From Candidatus Caenarcanales bacterium (GTDB taxonomy: Bacteria; Cyanobacteriota; Vampirovibrionia; LMEP-6097): a stretch of DNA of 64,000 nt. Below, in pieces: positions 24,485-63,786 of the stretch. The stretch's first letter is position 1. Every line of letters starts with the position of its first letter. Below the pieces are notes generated by a model, which saw only the letters and a program-made list of their open reading frames with translations, had not been told where the DNA came from and did no database searches. Made by a program: the position numbers and the translations under genes. Location of the stretch: positions 1 through 64,000 of the forward strand of contig JABSOS010000015.1 of NCBI GenBank assembly GCA_013216135.1. The letters run 5' to 3'.

Positions 24485-26119
24485 TTATGGAATTATCTTC
24501 CCTTTGAAATTTGGAGGTATGTAAGTGAGTTGCCCCTTTCTACCATATACTTCCGGACACTTAAGACTATCGCTCAGCTTTGTTATAGAACTCTTACCGA
24601 TATGAAGTGAGTCTTCAACAGTTAAATTATTAGGTAATTCTCGAATCTCATCTGAAACAAAATGAACAGTCTTCTTCACTCGTGTTTTATCTGGAAAAGT
24701 AACCTCTGCTGGTTTTACAACAGACAATCCACCTTCGATATTAATATTTTTAGAAAGTTCAATATTACCATCCCATAAAGCTAAATCACCTGATACATTT
24801 TCAAGAACTAATTTATTTTCATTCTCTCTTTGAATAGGGTCTACACCTTGAATAATTAAACTACCTAGTACGAGTCTTAAGTTCTTAATTTTATTAATAT
24901 CAGAAATCTCAGTCCTTTCATTAGCTAAAGCAATCGTGTTTTCATTTAACTCATCTATACTTGTGGCTATCTGATCGTGATCACAATTGAGGATTTTTGA
25001 TAGAGATGACTTCAAATCAATATTATTCTTAATAGTTCCAACTCGACTATCCTCTCCATATCCGAAACCAGCAACTTTTTCTTGATATAAAAAAACTAAA
25101 TCCTCAAGACCTAATGAATGACCTTTTTTGATCTTAGTATCAATTTCATTAAGCTTCTTTGCACTATTAAGTTTTATTCGTACATAATTACCGTGTTTTA
25201 TATTAGTTAATTTTTCTTCCAGAGCTTGATCATAGATACCGAGATTTTGATTCTCAGTAACTCCACGAATTTCTCGAGCCTCACCATCTTGATTAAGTAT
25301 CAATACCTTAGGGATTGTATAATCTCCAGTTTTATCTTTCACTAAATATAAAAAAGCATTACCCTGTCCTAAATATATCTCTGCAGATGGGGAACACCTT
25401 ACACAGAGATTTGTTCCTTGCCCAGCAAAAGATTCTACAAGCTCACTTGCACTTGAACCCTGTGGAAAAGTTCTCCATTCACCATCCATAGGATCCTCAC
25501 CTTCTTGATCCTTTAGAGCAATGTTGAAGAAATGAGTATAAATTTTATTAAAGCTAACAAAAGTATCCTTAAAAAGACTCTTTTTATCTTCATCAACATT
25601 TCCATTATTCAAATATTGAGTTACAAGTTCAACAAAATCCTTTAAAGCTTTTTTATTAAGTTCAGGGAAAAATTTACTACTATTTTTATCTCTTTTACTT
25701 AGAACCACATTATTACTTTTATCTACGGTTTGTTCAGCATTTGTAATTTGTTGCCAAATATAATATTTCATCCAAGTCGGCGTATTTGACATTTCAGGTG
25801 AGCTTAAATGATCCAACCATACTTTTAAAGATTCAATTTTACACTCCTTAATATGGCTATTTCCTTCATTAGAAGTATATTTTTCAAGATACTCTCTCTC
25901 AACTTGATTATAGAGAGAATGATTTTTTTGTTTCATCTCCATATATTTATTGAAATAATCATCAATCAAATTAATTGATTTATCTTCAAAAGATAGGTTG
26001 TGAGCTTGAATTCTATTATTAGATAAAACTTTATTATCAGCAACAAGCTTTTTAATTACCTTATGTTTATGAGGTAAGTGAGATTTCAAAAATTTATTTA
26101 CTTGATTTGCAGTTAGCAT
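24485..26119 (-). CDS. Unknown protein with LRR-like C-terminal repeats
   Basis: About 544 residues from the Met at 26119; a longer start at 26179 adds 20 residues that look non-coding. The N-terminal half is Lys/Asn-rich and helical. The middle has a compact segment (WRTFPQGSSASELVESF, then LCVRCSPSAEIYLGQG) unlike its surroundings. The C-terminus repeats a roughly 20-residue pattern of the form L-x2-L-x-LP-x2-L (REL-PNNLTVEDSLHIGKS is one unit), reminiscent of leucine-rich repeats in effector-type proteins. No catalytic site is recognised. It converges on dnaX with an 8-base gap. Confidence 0.6.
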   Translation of the reverse strand: MLTANQVNKFLKSHLPHKHKVIKKLVADNKVLSNNRIQAHNLSFEDKSINLIDDYFNKYMEMKQKNHSLYNQVEREYLEKYTSNEGNSHIKECKIESLKVWLDHLSSPEMSNTPTWMKYYIWQQITNAEQTVDKSNNVVLSKRDKNSSKFFPELNKKALKDFVELVTQYLNNGNVDEDKKSLFKDTFVSFNKIYTHFFNIALKDQEGEDPMDGEWRTFPQGSSASELVESFAGQGTNLCVRCSPSAEIYLGQGNAFLYLVKDKTGDYTIPKVLILNQDGEAREIRGVTENQNLGIYDQALEEKLTNIKHGNYVRIKLNSAKKLNEIDTKIKKGHSLGLEDLVFLYQEKVAGFGYGEDSRVGTIKNNIDLKSSLSKILNCDHDQIATSIDELNENTIALANERTEISDINKIKNLRLVLGSLIIQGVDPIQRENENKLVLENVSGDLALWDGNIELSKNINIEGGLSVVKPAEVTFPDKTRVKKTVHFVSDEIRELPNNLTVEDSLHIGKSSITKLSDSLKCPEVYGRKGQLTYIPPNFKGKIIP

Positions 26120-26275
26120 TATTTTGGATTCCAATCGACCACTATTTAAGATAATACACTTTTCGCCGCGACAAGTCAATACTATTTAGACAGGCTTCAA
26201 ATTATCCATATTTTCAAATAATTTCAGCTTACAAACAAATTGGTTAATTAGGTTATGGATTATTGATAATTAAGT

Positions 26276-41080: not shown

Positions 41081-41482
41081 ATGGCGGCAATAAACACAGC
41101 ACAACAATTGGCGAAGGTCAGGTCAAAGATCGACGCACAACAACAAATTGTAGATAAATTAGAATTAGAATTACAAAAAGCAATTTTAGGTGATCAGACA
41201 AGTACAACAGTAGGTAATGTACTTACTGATATACAAAACATTTATAACCCATTATCAGATGGTACTATTTTATACAACTCATTATTTAATGGATTAGAAG
41301 AGTTCGCTGGACACGGTACAGGTTTCGCTGCAACAGAAACTGACCAGACCATGCTAAGACAGCTTCTTTATCAAGCAAGGGCTATGTTAGGTGAGCTTAG
41401 AATCGAAGAGCAACACTATAACCAAGAAGTCCAACAAGAACAAAACTTAAGAAAGTCATTGATTGACTTATCGAAAGCATAA
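41081..41482 (+). CDS. Small helical/coiled-coil protein, probably abundant
   Basis: A 133-residue protein, helical at both ends (QQQIVDKLELELQKAI and RIEEQHYNQEVQQEQNLRKS) with a Gly-rich loop in the middle (EFAGHGTGFAATETD). It has one of the best ribosome sites in the window, AAGGAGG eight bases before the ATG, and an excellent terminator after it, which suggests strong solo expression. No Cys, no membrane segment, no signal peptide. I do not recognise the family. A structural, chaperone or secretion-related role is possible, but I have no direct evidence. Confidence 0.7.
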   Translation: MAAINTAQQLAKVRSKIDAQQQIVDKLELELQKAILGDQTSTTVGNVLTDIQNIYNPLSDGTILYNSLFNGLEEFAGHGTGFAATETDQTMLRQLLYQARAMLGELRIEEQHYNQEVQQEQNLRKSLIDLSKA

Positions 41483-42066: not shown

Positions 42067-42243
42067 AAAAATAATTTTTTGTTTGTGCTTATTTTATACC
42101 CAAATTTGAAATGTTTTAAACCTGTTTTTTGCAAATATTTGAAAAATTTTTCAAATATTTTTACTCGAAGTCAGAAATATCCTGTTTTTATATTTCCTCA
42201 AGACTTAAATATTAGGATATAAGTTATAATTAATCTTTGATTT

Positions 42244-42324
42244 GGTCCCATAGCTCAGTTGGCTCGGAGGCGATCAGCCTCACGTAAGAAAGAGTCAGTC
42301 AAGACTGCGGGAATCAAAACGAAT
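42244..42324 (+). repeat. Partial duplicate of the tRNA-Met 5' end plus 62-nt insert
   Basis: The first 19 bases of the tRNA gene (acceptor strand through most of the D-loop) occur twice: at 42244-42262 and, in the intact tRNA, at 42325-42343. Between them are 62 bases unlike any tRNA arm, including the hairpin GAGGC-GATCA-GCCTC. The first copy has no matching 3' acceptor half, so it is not a functional tRNA. It looks like a small tandem duplication or insertion-site duplication. Confidence 0.7.
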
Positions 42325-42401
42325 GGTCCCATAGCTCAGTTGGTCAGAGCAGTCGACTCATAATCGATTGGTCGTTGGTTCAAGTCCAACTGGGACCACC
42401 A
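42325..42401 (+). tRNA. tRNA-Met (anticodon CAT), elongator type
   Basis: A 77-base tRNA with a full cloverleaf: acceptor GGTCCCA with TGGGACC, D arm GCTC-AGTTGGTCA-GAGC, anticodon loop CTCATAA with anticodon CAT, T arm GTTGG-TTCAAGT-CCAAC, discriminator A and encoded CCA. The D-loop and anticodon-arm wording resembles elongator tRNA-Met more than initiator or tRNA-Ile2. A tRNA-Ile(CAU) cannot be fully excluded by eye. Confidence 0.93.
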
Positions 42402-42491: not shown

Positions 42492-44135
42492 ATGGCAAAT
42501 ATTGCAATTAATCAAGCAAAACCATTAGGGAGTGTGCAGAATAACACACAATCTCTCCAGAAAAAAACGAGTTCTAATAATAAAAATACACTAACTATTC
42601 ATCAACCAGAAGATAATTATTTAATTGGTCCAAGTCTATCTGAGATGAAAAATCAAATTAATTGGGAGAAAATTAAAACTGAAAATTCAGATAGAAAAAT
42701 TAAACTTACAGATATTTTTAATCCAATAAAACTTTTAAATAAGGTTCTTAAAAAGATTTTTTACCCAGGTACTTTTCAAAAACATCCTAGTTCTTATATA
42801 GCATCAGCACCATCTAATCTTGATCAGTTTAGAAAATTAGGAGCGAATATAAAATCTGAGTATATTCTTACCGGGAATAAAACCCCTATCTTGGTTTGGC
42901 ATATAAGACAAGCAGACAAGTCTGATGCAAAAACTAAACTTTACTTTCACGGTAACGCTGGTTCTGTTAATGATTTTTCCAAAAATGCCTTAAAAGACTT
43001 TAAAGCTGGTAGTAATATTGTTTTAACAAGCTATGGTGGATATTCTGCTAACCCAGGCAGTCCATCACAAGCAAATCTCACAGAAGATTCTAGATCTATA
43101 ATTAGTTATCTGATTGACCAAGAAGGGGTTAAATCAGAGGGTTTGAATATTATTGCTCATTCATTAGGTTCTGCAGTTGCTTTAGCTGGTCTGGAGAAGA
43201 GAAGTCAGGAGAAAAATCCTGAATACTACAAATTGCTTGAAGATCTTGAAAATTTAGCTAAGAGTAATCCTGAAGAGTTACAAAAGCTAATGACAGACCC
43301 AGAAAAACTTAGATCGAAAATATCAGATAGTATAAAGGAAAGGTATGGAAACTTAACTCTAATATCTCCTTTCTCCAAGTTTATTGACTTATTAAAAAAT
43401 AAATTGAAAATCATTTCGAAACCACTTTTATCGAAAGTGTTTAAAACAGAGCTATGGGATAATCCAGATAAAGTTATAAAATTATCTCGTTTAATAAATT
43501 TTCTCGAAATTAAACATGGTGAAAAAGATACCCTAATTCCAATAAAACATGCAGAGGACTTACATCAATCTGCTAGACAAGCTTCTATACCAATATACTT
43601 TAATAAAATAAGTGCAGCTGGACATAATGATATTTTGAATGATAGTTATGAAGCAGAATTATTATCATTACCAATAGATAAAAATTTAAATCCTTCTCAA
43701 ATGAGCTCACCAACAAGCCACATGAAAGAAACAGGACAAGAGTTTGCAATTGATTTATTTTCACCACAATTACAAATTGGATCTCCTATTTATGCCTGCG
43801 AAGGTGGAATAGTCCTTGATGATTTAGTTACAGGGAGTGGAGTAATTGATAATAATATTGATAGACCAGAAGGTGACTTTTCTTTTAATCCAAGTGAGGA
43901 AATGAAAATAAATCGTTTATTTATTCAAACCCCTACTGGCAAAATTGACTTATATGCACACCTTAAGCAAGGAAGCACAAAATTGAAGCCTGGAGATAAA
44001 GTCAAGAAAGGTGAAAAGGTCGGGGAGGTAGGCAATAATGGAGCGAGTGATGGTCTTCACTTACATTTTGCAAGAGGAGATAAAGATCCATCTAAGGTTT
44101 TTAAATTCAACTCTATACCAATAAAATTTGGATAA
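42492..44135 (+). CDS. Alpha/beta hydrolase fused to an M23 metallopeptidase
   Basis: A 547-residue, two-enzyme protein. After a polar ~60-residue N-terminus (many Asn, Gln, Ser), residues about 100-385 form an alpha/beta hydrolase: oxyanion HGNAGS near 153, nucleophile Ser224 in AHSLGS and a late catalytic His in AGHND. From about 405 comes an M23 (LytM-type) endopeptidase: zinc ligands His410 and Asp421, then YAHL and His525 in LHLHF (His523-Leu-His525). M23 enzymes cut peptidoglycan cross-links. There is no classical signal peptide. The combination is unusual. Repeat copy 1 begins 18 bases after the stop. Confidence 0.82.
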   Translation: MANIAINQAKPLGSVQNNTQSLQKKTSSNNKNTLTIHQPEDNYLIGPSLSEMKNQINWEKIKTENSDRKIKLTDIFNPIKLLNKVLKKIFYPGTFQKHPSSYIASAPSNLDQFRKLGANIKSEYILTGNKTPILVWHIRQADKSDAKTKLYFHGNAGSVNDFSKNALKDFKAGSNIVLTSYGGYSANPGSPSQANLTEDSRSIISYLIDQEGVKSEGLNIIAHSLGSAVALAGLEKRSQEKNPEYYKLLEDLENLAKSNPEELQKLMTDPEKLRSKISDSIKERYGNLTLISPFSKFIDLLKNKLKIISKPLLSKVFKTELWDNPDKVIKLSRLINFLEIKHGEKDTLIPIKHAEDLHQSARQASIPIYFNKISAAGHNDILNDSYEAELLSLPIDKNLNPSQMSSPTSHMKETGQEFAIDLFSPQLQIGSPIYACEGGIVLDDLVTGSGVIDNNIDRPEGDFSFNPSEEMKINRLFIQTPTGKIDLYAHLKQGSTKLKPGDKVKKGEKVGEVGNNGASDGLHLHFARGDKDPSKVFKFNSIPIKFG

Positions 44136-44152: not shown

Positions 44153-44242
44153 GTTTAAAACTTTTCAAAACTGGGCATAATATACTTATCGAAACAAAAT
44201 AGAACTTTTAAATGATCCAAGTAATTGGGTCTTTTTTATTTT
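44153..44242 (+). repeat. Dispersed promoter-hairpin element, copy 1
   Basis: About 90 bases. It starts with TTTAAAACTTTTCAAAACTG, then an extended -10-like CATAAT (44176-44181), about 30 bases of AT-rich sequence and a hairpin GATCCAA-GTAA-TTGGGTC (44214-44231) with a run of six T. If transcribed from the box, it would give a ~50-nt RNA. Three further copies in the same orientation follow at 46949, 50649 and 52194. It begins 18 bases after the stop of the hydrolase-peptidase gene. Confidence 0.85.
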
Positions 44243-45309
44243 CAAGAAACTATTCTAAAATTAAGAGTTTTACTCATTTCAGCAGTCGCAGACCTTTCTT
44301 GATTATCGACATGAATACCAACCGAATCTTCTCCAGCATCATACATTGCTATGGTAGGAATTCCTAAACGCTTATGAGTATTTATAGTCTCAGGATCAGT
44401 TCTCCTATCATCATTTGTTACATGCCCCAATCCGTTTATTGTGATGAACTTTTTACCTGGACTAGATAAAGATCCTTTAATTACATTTTCAATATAAGGT
44501 TCAGATTCTTTCTGCCTCAATGCACACCAATGAGCACCTGTTTCAGCATGAATAGGAGAGATCCCTGTATTTTTATCAAAATCTAGACATTCACTTGAAT
44601 CAGCACAAAGAACTTTAATACCATTAAGCTGAGCTGCTTTAAATAATGCAAGATGTGATTCTGCAAATGCCTCTGCATCCTCAAATGGAGGAACCCAAGA
44701 TTTCAACCTTGTTCTTAAAGCTTCTTCATTAGTACTTTCTTCAGCTGTTCCAATCGAATCCAAATAAGCATTAACAAGATCAGTATTTCTATTATCTATC
44801 TCAAAAGCAATGACCTCCAAGCCTTGCTTCTTCAAATCAGACAATAAACCAGCAATTATATGCCTATGTTTATTACTAAAATGGTATTCGCCAACCGCGA
44901 CACCTGGGTGCTCTTCTAAAAGTCTTGAGAAGAGTTCGAAAACTGGATTTTTAGTTGAATTAATTTCTCCACTTTGAACAGCTTCTTTGATTTCATCCAA
45001 GTCTAGTTCTGGCATAGATAAGTTTGGAGATTCAGTATAGTTTTCATATTTTGCAATTAAGCTTGAAAGTTTTTCATCATAGTTTGCAACTCTAAGGTCA
45101 GTTTTAACAAAAGAAGTAAAGTCATCAAACTTAACATCATTAAGATCAGCTCTTATCATATAAGCTTCATCAAACTTTGCAGCTTTAAGATTAGCACCAG
45201 ATAAATCAGCTTCACATAAGTCTGCACGAGTAAAGTTTGTACCTAAAGCTTTAACATCTTTTAAAATAGCAGAATCTAATGATGCTCCAGTGAAATCTGC
45301 CTCACTCAA
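44242..45309 (-). CDS. Pentapeptide repeats and EreA/ChaN-like domain (C-terminal part)
   Basis: 355 residues from an internal TTG. The first ~75 are A(D/N)LxG pentapeptide repeats forming a four-sided helix. Residues about 125-355 resemble the EreA/ChaN/Tiki fold: GVAVGEYHFSNKHRHIIAGLL with a GE-H pair, VIAFEIDNRN, then a late GLGHVTNDD His. Proteins of this superfamily include haem-uptake ChaN, erythromycin esterases and toxin domains. Function here unassigned. There is no signal peptide. Confidence 0.65.
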   Translation of the reverse strand: MSEADFTGASLDSAILKDVKALGTNFTRADLCEADLSGANLKAAKFDEAYMIRADLNDVKFDDFTSFVKTDLRVANYDEKLSSLIAKYENYTESPNLSMPELDLDEIKEAVQSGEINSTKNPVFELFSRLLEEHPGVAVGEYHFSNKHRHIIAGLLSDLKKQGLEVIAFEIDNRNTDLVNAYLDSIGTAEESTNEEALRTRLKSWVPPFEDAEAFAESHLALFKAAQLNGIKVLCADSSECLDFDKNTGISPIHAETGAHWCALRQKESEPYIENVIKGSLSSPGKKFITINGLGHVTNDDRRTDPETINTHKRLGIPTIAMYDAGEDSVGIHVDNQERSATAEMSKTLNFRIVS

Positions 45310-49361: not shown

Positions 49362-50642
49362 ATGGTAACTATACTTGAGACATTCAAGCCTTTCAGACAG
49401 AGCAATTCATTTTCAAATAATGAGCAATTAATTGCTAGATCTTTTATAAATGAAACTAGCAAATATAATAATCTCACTCAAAAGCACGCTATAGAGCTAG
49501 CACTTAATCGCTTATCCAAAGGAGAAGACATTGACATTGCTTTAATCTTAGTTGCTTCAATAGACGCTAATTCAGAAACAGAAACCTATCAATTTAAAAG
49601 AGGAATAGAAAACATTCTTAATGCTAAATCAAACAGACAGCGACCTCAACAAAATAAAGTCCTAGCAGTAAGTATCAATCTTGATAGTGACACCAATAGA
49701 AAGTTTTTAAAGCAAATAGCTAAAAATAGCAATAGTAAAATTAGCAAAACAGGCTTAGAAGCTTTACAGAATAATGATTTAGAAAAAGTCTATCTGCTTA
49801 TTGATAAATCTTTAGACTCTAAATCTAAATTAAACATCCTCACTCCAAGCGAGTTTGTAAATTATAGTAATGTACCTGAGGAAAGAGATTCTGAGCTTAG
49901 AATATCAACTGGAGAAAGTCAGAGTCAAGAAAGCCCAAGAAATCTACTCAGCAACGCTAGATTAAAACTTCATTCAAATACCTCAGTACCTTTATCTGTA
50001 ATTGAATCTATAGGAAAAAGTTTTAAAAGTAACCCTGAAGATTCTGATTTCAAAGCTGGAATAAGAGCTATATTAGGTGAGGATTCTAAAAATAAAGCTG
50101 TAAAAGTTTATTTAGATAAAAATCATAGAGAGTTTGGAGTTGCCTATAGTGCAGTATCTGAATCGTCAGGACTTGTTACTAGTTTTGAATTAGGAAAGCA
50201 GCAAGCTGTTTACCTTTTTTCAATTAACGAAAATAATGAATTGATAGCAGAGCTAGAAAAGAATGAACAGAAATTAGAAATTAACTTTAATGATCAAGCC
50301 TCAAGACAAACTCTTGATACCATCGCCAAATATATTTCTGAGAATTCAGGTGAACTTAATAATTTAAATATAGATAAACTAAATAGTGAAATTAGTAAGT
50401 ATGGTTTCACTGTGAAGATTAATGAGCTTGACAATAAACCTAGCTTAGAACTAAGCCATATATCTGGCTCTATAGATAATGATAAAGTCAATGCTTATAG
50501 AATAGCTGTTGATTACCAGACTAGTGGTGATAATCCAAATTTGAAACTCAAATTCACTTTACTGAATAATAATTTAGGGACAGAGGTGGAGCTTGACTCA
50601 GATGCACAATATAACTTTGAAATTTTATATAATATTTTTTAA
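49362..50642 (+). CDS. Unknown protein, Asn/Ser-rich
   Basis: 426 residues, no motif recognised. It alternates short helical segments with beta-rich stretches near the C-terminus (DNPNLKLKFTLLNNNLGTEV). The N-terminus is polar (MVTILETFKPFRQSNSFSNN) and there is no signal or membrane segment. It starts 18 bases after the gene with the internal stop, on the same strand, and is intact. Repeat copy 3 begins 7 bases after its stop. Function unknown. Confidence 0.65.
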   Translation: MVTILETFKPFRQSNSFSNNEQLIARSFINETSKYNNLTQKHAIELALNRLSKGEDIDIALILVASIDANSETETYQFKRGIENILNAKSNRQRPQQNKVLAVSINLDSDTNRKFLKQIAKNSNSKISKTGLEALQNNDLEKVYLLIDKSLDSKSKLNILTPSEFVNYSNVPEERDSELRISTGESQSQESPRNLLSNARLKLHSNTSVPLSVIESIGKSFKSNPEDSDFKAGIRAILGEDSKNKAVKVYLDKNHREFGVAYSAVSESSGLVTSFELGKQQAVYLFSINENNELIAELEKNEQKLEINFNDQASRQTLDTIAKYISENSGELNNLNIDKLNSEISKYGFTVKINELDNKPSLELSHISGSIDNDKVNAYRIAVDYQTSGDNPNLKLKFTLLNNNLGTEVELDSDAQYNFEILYNIF

Positions 50643-62709: not shown

Positions 62710-63786
62710 TTAGCGAAGCTTCCTACCACCAGAATTCCCGCCAGGACTTGCATTCAAAATTTTATTTTTTGTATTAGCATTATAGTTCCATTGAATAATC
62801 TTAGTTAATTTAAAACTTGCACTTGTAATCGCCTTCTCAAGTGTAGTTTCACCAGAATCTTCTATCTGTTTAGAGTTAACTACTGTTAAAATTTTATCTT
62901 TGCCTAAAACTAAAATCAATGCAGGTTTCAAATCTTTAATTTTCTCTGGGTGTTTCTCCAAAAATTTCAATATCGAAACAGCCTTGGCTTCATTGTTTAT
63001 GAAGTAATTCTGAAGCTCAGTAAAAGCTTTTGTAACTGGAGAAGTTTCTTTATAAACTATCTTTAATTTTTCTTTACCTGATTTACTCATGTCTCTACGT
63101 GCATTTTTTGGAAGTAACTCAAATACTCTATTGAGATTTTCATCTTCTAATACAGTCGGAACCATATTCAAGATTGATTGAAAGTTCTGTTCATCACTAT
63201 GAGCCTTCTTTTTCCTATCTAACACTAAGCCACCGTAACTTATATTAGCTATACGACTAAGAGCTTTAGCTGAAGATTTATCTGATAAACTCTTTAATTG
63301 TTCACCAAGAGATTTTCTCACTATATTTTGACCATTTGCAGTTGAAATATTAGAGATATGGTTTTCCGCTGGATTGAAAATATACTTGTCAAAGACATCC
63401 TTATTCTCATACAACTTTTTAACTCCACCTTCCATATTCTTCAAAGATTCAGTAATATGCCCCCAAGCCTTTCTCACAATCTCTTTCGAAACTTCTTTTA
63501 AATTAGACTTCATTTCATTCATAGAGCCATTTTGACTATCCAAAAAATTATTAGCCCCTTTATAAAAACCAATATAAGAATCTAAAAATTCAAAAACAGG
63601 CAACATGTCCTCAATAGAATTAGCTTTACTCAAAGAAGTAATCGCTTTGTCTAAATCAAGCTTAACTTCCTTCGGTAATTTTTTTACAAGTTTCAAATTA
63701 TATTGATTCACTTGATCAATATTTTCTTGAAGTGATGTAATTTGACTATAGTCATTTGCTTTAATAGTTTGAGCTTGTGTTTTCAT
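62710..63786 (-). CDS. Unknown helical protein
   Basis: 358 residues, nearly all helical, Lys/Asn/Ser-rich, with a Gly/Ser/Arg-rich end (SPGGNSGGRKLR). The N-terminus is polar (MKTQAQTIKANDYSQIT), without signal or membrane segment, as in the other unknown proteins of this window. No motif recognised. It converges on the trehalase-like gene with a 9-base gap. The 81 bases upstream (63787-63867) hold no gene. Confidence 0.6.
   Translation of the reverse strand: MKTQAQTIKANDYSQITSLQENIDQVNQYNLKLVKKLPKEVKLDLDKAITSLSKANSIEDMLPVFEFLDSYIGFYKGANNFLDSQNGSMNEMKSNLKEVSKEIVRKAWGHITESLKNMEGGVKKLYENKDVFDKYIFNPAENHISNISTANGQNIVRKSLGEQLKSLSDKSSAKALSRIANISYGGLVLDRKKKAHSDEQNFQSILNMVPTVLEDENLNRVFELLPKNARRDMSKSGKEKLKIVYKETSPVTKAFTELQNYFINNEAKAVSILKFLEKHPEKIKDLKPALILVLGKDKILTVVNSKQIEDSGETTLEKAITSASFKLTKIIQWNYNANTKNKILNASPGGNSGGRKLR

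Follow-up and report, generated by a model that had tools for sequence, protein, structure and literature searches.

Peptidases of family M23 (Pfam PF01551), such as LytM, DipM and MepM, carry an HxxxD motif and an HxH motif with a preceding catalytic His, while the alpha/beta hydrolase superfamily is characterised by a nucleophile elbow and a Ser-Asp-His triad in this order. The ABH effector domain of MARTX toxins has been described as a PI3P-specific phospholipase A1 (PMC4640098), the export of non-flagellar proteins by the flagellar machinery, including the phospholipase YplA, has been reported (PMC2764114, PMC4336687), and a type IV system has been put forward for the predator Vampirovibrio (PMC4451040). 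The organism studied here belongs to the same class as Vampirovibrio. A photosystem II protein is found in 20 of the 59 sampled genomes of the phylum and in 0 of the 21 of this class, so that the 64,000-nucleotide stretch of DNA that was analysed (hereafter the window) comes from a class of Cyanobacteriota that does not photosynthesise, probably Vampirovibrionia/Melainabacteria.

The gene at 42492..44135 of the window (+ strand, as are all the features located below by dotted ranges) starts with ATG and encodes P0001, a protein of 547 residues that joins in one frame a polar leader roughly 70 residues long (residues 1-70, 42492..42701), an alpha/beta hydrolase domain (about residues 90-395, 42759..43676, with limits inferred from alignments) and a C-terminal M23 peptidase domain (about residues 405-547, 43704..44132, from Pfam and alignments). 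Judging from the 547 codons, the matches to two families and a homologue that spans the full length (L026:9454-11019), the frame is not due to chance, and the hydrolase and the M23 peptidase that the initial annotation had placed in one chain are indeed found there. The same annotation had described the protein as lacking a classical export signal and as having a polar N-terminus, both of which hold. An in-frame stop (TAA) lies four codons 5' of the ATG, which excludes a longer start or product; near the N-terminus, the highest hydrophobicity of any 12-residue stretch is 0.58, compared to a median of 0.98 for 100 ORFs, and there is no hydrophobic export segment, with no 19-residue stretch above 1.19. 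Thus, this frame cannot give rise to a Sec signal. By contrast, a hydrophobic N-terminal stretch is present, by eye, in 6 of the 6 M23 proteins compared (two of this genome and four of one other family of the class).

The fraction of S, T, N and Q in the leader, 0.53 over 30 residues, is the highest among the same 100 ORFs (median 0.27), a set of ORFs of at least 150 residues taken by a greedy rule from six stretches of this genome and including some false frames, such as the over-long start of a fumarase frame that ranked second. In two homologues that have the N-terminal end the fraction is 0.50 and 0.53, and the leaders of three homologues are rich in these residues although they share almost no leader sequence. 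The bias is also present in some ORFs adjoining flagellar genes. This composition fits type III export, although disorder alone would give an equal bias. It is noted that two long proteins of the window with no Pfam match (49362-50642 and 62710-63786) have N-termini rich in S, T, N and Q, and that a further long protein at 24485-26179 has no Pfam match.

In the hydrolase part, Abhydrolase_1 matches residues 150-236 at 2.1e-5, with 24.7 bits just under the Pfam cut-off of 25.8. The motifs FHGNAG, AHSLG, HGEKD and AGH follow one another in the usual order, giving the nucleophile elbow and the triad of the superfamily: Ser224 (43161..43163) is the nucleophile in AHSLG, a motif also present in a gene remnant of a relative (G005, see below), while Asp346 (43527..43529) and His378 (43623..43625) are the likely acid and base, with roles inferred. 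All three residues are identical in the homologue of G002, a genome from a different genus in this family. The class also has standalone alpha/beta hydrolases (Hydrolase_4 / Abhydrolase_1), which share the FHGNAG-type oxyanion stretch, the nucleophile elbow and the triad order, but they have no M23 domain, and the polar leader and a charged helical insertion at about residues 236-286 belong to the fusion. A tree built from 21 hydrolases groups the two fusions with support 84/76, and nearest to the pair, on a very long branch, is a standalone hydrolase of the same genome. A likeness to toxin hydrolases was rejected as a specific indication: the best sequence match among solved structures is the MARTX ABH effector domain (1.6e-6), but this match is non-specific, as both control hydrolases of the class (only two were tested) match the same chains first.

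In the M23 part, Pfam Peptidase_M23 matches residues 474-527 at 9.6e-12, with 45.4 bits above the cut-off of 28.7. The initial annotation had claimed a complete M23 zinc site, and comparison with an alignment of 61 distinct viral M23 homologues bears this out for most of the metal residues. Asp421 (43752..43754, a zinc ligand), His490, and His523 and His525 of the HLH motif (44058..44066) each occupy a column that holds the same residue in 61 of 61 homologues, and all four are identical in G002. What needs correction is the first ligand, because the His of the HxxxD motif, present in 60 of the 61, is Glu417 (43740..43742) in P0001 and Glu in G002, so that ExxxD takes the place of the motif. 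A His at the non-canonical spacing of 11 residues before Asp421 (H-x10-D), namely His410 (43719..43721), lies in the same alignment column as a His in G002 and is a plausible candidate for the first zinc ligand. By eye, the lone viral exception (L077) likewise has no HxxxD His, and has an upstream GHR with the His 11 residues before the Asp; four M23 proteins of another family of the class (L010, L014, L019, L023) also have no HxxxD His and carry an upstream GHR. From these alignments, we read the domain as a probable M23 subtype with a shifted first ligand, a degenerate site being possible. Compared to LytM, DipM and MepM, P0001 has Asp421, His490 and the HLH motif in common and differs in Glu417, in the hydrolase fused in front and in having no Sec signal.

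The fusion is rare. The genome of the window (G000) has four match places in all, with only single-domain matches besides the gene itself, and 55 of 60 related genomes (this one included) have some match, nearly always to one domain. A two-row profile at 1e-15 matches 8 of 382 genomes of the class, at full length in G000 and G002, as a fragment in G007 and in the hydrolase only in five. Hence an intact fusion is present in 2 of the 382, the G002 copy having 521 residues, covering the whole protein and being about 32–34% identical, and broken remnants are present in two more. The G005 remnant covers about residues 196-293; that of G007 covers residues 70-136 and 148-209 in two frames near a contig end, in a genome that is 54% complete, where an assembly error is possible. 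Directly before each remnant lies a protein of 377–427 residues (L025:7141-8274 in G007, with 0 Pfam families, and L024:5483-6766 in G005). The remaining five of the nine family genomes (G000 and G001 to G008) give single-domain matches and no fusion match at 1e-15. The initial annotation had regarded separate genes in most relatives as evidence against its reading; formally, 380 of the 382 genomes have no intact fusion and the ordinary relatives of either domain in the class carry it on its own, but these are relatives of the domains and not orthologues. Fast evolution of the fusion was also considered and is not adopted, since the gap between its identity in G000 and G002 (32%) and that of FliF (49%) is modest and one comparison is insufficient.

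Two scans of genome contigs with a few weak peptide patterns returned no fusion and only one M23 match, from Lachnospiraceae; with so few patterns a miss carries little weight, here as in the viral contigs discussed below. Matches in seven plasmid records neither cover 80% of the query nor pass residue 431 into the M23 domain. P0001, its homologue and four neighbours have 0 matches to the PADLOC defence families.

The gene also moves. In G002 it is flanked by a PLP decarboxylase and an Fe-S oxidoreductase, which are adjacent with no fusion between them in G003, G004, G006 and G008, the last two being of the same genus as G002 (the oxidoreductase was not seen in the stretches fetched from G000, G001, G005 and G007, and the G002 locus L063 ended before it). 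In the window, a tRNA-Met(CAT) at 42325..42401 lies 90 bases 5' of the gene, and a 20-base copy of its 5' end at 42243..42262 has a similar partial counterpart in G007. The upstream side of this site (a PAP2-like protein, a polyprenyl synthase, a 133-residue protein and the tRNA-Met) is kept in G001, G005 and G007, while the downstream cargo varies: G007 has proteins of the Fic, tyrosine integrase and DUF5906 types, G001 has ORFs that match these in size and start, and G005 has a MazG-like protein and a Schlafen-type helicase. The fusion is therefore an accessory, moving gene of this non-photosynthetic class. No repeat of the tRNA 3' end occurs elsewhere in the window, so that an element boundary cannot be drawn. 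As for the neighbours, the 133-residue helical protein (41081-41482) is conserved in all nine family genomes and has several paralogues, one of them near the second FliF set; and the gene at 44242-45309, convergent with the fusion gene, encodes a protein with pentapeptide repeats and, after them, a weak match of the ChaN/Tiki type (PF04187, 0.00087, under the cut-off).

With regard to export, the genome has two FlhA-like proteins, which score 732 and 715 with the FlhA model versus 539 and 616 with the injectisome model, and two FliF-like proteins; 8 of 9 family genomes have two or more FliF-like matches (in one draft genome, some of the three matches are fragments). The window itself encodes a FliP that passes the flagellar cut-off, and the genome has nine rod-type matches and two secretins. 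The second FliE-FliF-FliH set lies at L043:9713-13957 (contig C6), with a FliF-like protein of 605 residues that shares only 27% identity with the other FliF along 245 residues, and the second FlhA-like gene is on contig C45. An injectisome was considered but finds no support, as both FlhA-like proteins score higher for FlhA and no translocator, needle or injectisome was identified; a type IV system was rejected as VirB4 was not found in the genome. The two type III sets thus look flagellar-like. The fusion is not adjacent to export genes in G000 or G002, and a literature search returned no paper joining "Caenarcaniphilales" with "type III secretion". In the neighbourhood of one FlhA (L029:15463-17844, contig C12), a 793-residue protein has FG-GAP repeats (5e-26) and a weak N-terminal flagellin match (0.0027, under the cut-off); two similar ORFs adjoin it, and these are possibly flagellins with an inserted beta-propeller-like domain.

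Based on these data, we propose tentatively, with a probability of about 40%, that P0001 is a lytic enzyme with two domains, encoded by an accessory gene that moves horizontally, and that it leaves the cell by a route other than Sec and acts on the envelopes of other cells. The hydrolase would cleave an ester or a lipid, the M23 domain would cut peptidoglycan cross-links, and the protein would have its site of action beyond the cytoplasm, at another cell's envelope, after an exit that would most likely be type III (flagellar-type) export by means of the polar leader. Counted in favour are the retention of both domains with their motifs in two genera whose copies are about 32–34% identical, the missing Sec signal, the leader composition shared by three homologues, the movement of the gene, the two type III export sets of the family and the flagellar export reported for YplA. 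On the other side, the first zinc ligand is non-canonical and no same-strand neighbour resembles an immunity gene (the next gene downstream being convergent), the leader may reflect mere disorder, and a single-sequence structure model has a mean pLDDT of 34.1, which also counts against the proposal. Like type III effectors and proteins such as YplA, P0001 has no Sec signal, a polar leader and an accessory, moving gene; it differs in having no chaperone and a genome with no identified injectisome, the export being a prediction. Of the secreted antibacterial or predatory effector suggested by the initial annotation, the accessory and moving character is as expected, but the missing immunity-like neighbour, the flagellar look of the type III genes and the missing VirB4 lend no support to secretion, a target or antibacterial action.

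Three other explanations have to be weighed against this lytic enzyme. Replacement of the first-ligand His by Glu417 in both intact copies, together with the missing export signal, would also fit an enzyme of the cytoplasm, perhaps a moonlighting one, whose hydrolase has small esters or lipids as substrates and whose M23 domain has degenerated or serves for binding only; some standalone hydrolases of the class have, by eye, no export signal either. We consider this rather unlikely, because Asp421, His490, His523 and His525 are all shared by two proteins that are about 33% identical overall, as is the His 11 residues from the Asp, and because we know of no obvious substrate for a peptidoglycan peptidase domain in the cytoplasm. 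An enzyme derived from phage or an island is quite unlikely. Such an enzyme would have no signal because its release formerly depended on a holin or on lysis, and its hydrolase would be a second envelope-breaking activity. The M23 part does match phage endolysin families (best 1.6e-9 for P0001 and 1.5e-17 for G002), but several of these are very long proteins sharing only the M23 domain; no match to P0001 was found in 50,697 phage records at 1e-5, and no relative was confirmed in a scan of viral contigs with a few weak patterns. Likewise, the tRNA-Met site holds the tyrosine integrase and a DUF5906 protein in relatives, but in G002 a single gene is inserted, no integrase was seen near the fusion in the window, and no phage genes were recognised beside it there.

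The third explanation makes use of the same two flagellar-type sets and the same missing Sec signal as the flagellar-type exit proposed above. FlgJ is a precedent for a flagellar-exported enzyme that opens the sacculus, and P0001 could likewise leave through the flagellar machinery and open the cell's own wall. This is improbable, since the fusion is absent from most family members that have both sets and is unlinked to rod genes, and a hydrolase is unexpected for opening the sacculus. Going further than the lytic enzyme preferred here, one may suppose a dual envelope-dissolving effector, with a lipid ester hydrolase and a peptidoglycan peptidase in one chain, that these non-photosynthetic cyanobacteria release against neighbours by flagellar-type type III export and that is traded at tRNA sites from lineage to lineage; in this full form we hold the idea to be unlikely.

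Finally, we note what the lytic enzyme would mean for the organism. P0001 in itself represents a variant of M23 in which the usual first zinc ligand is replaced. If it is exported, it would pair an attack on lipid and an attack on the wall in one chain, and it would provide this branch of the Cyanobacteriota with a weapon that can be tested and is distinct from the type IV system proposed for Vampirovibrio (PMC4451040).
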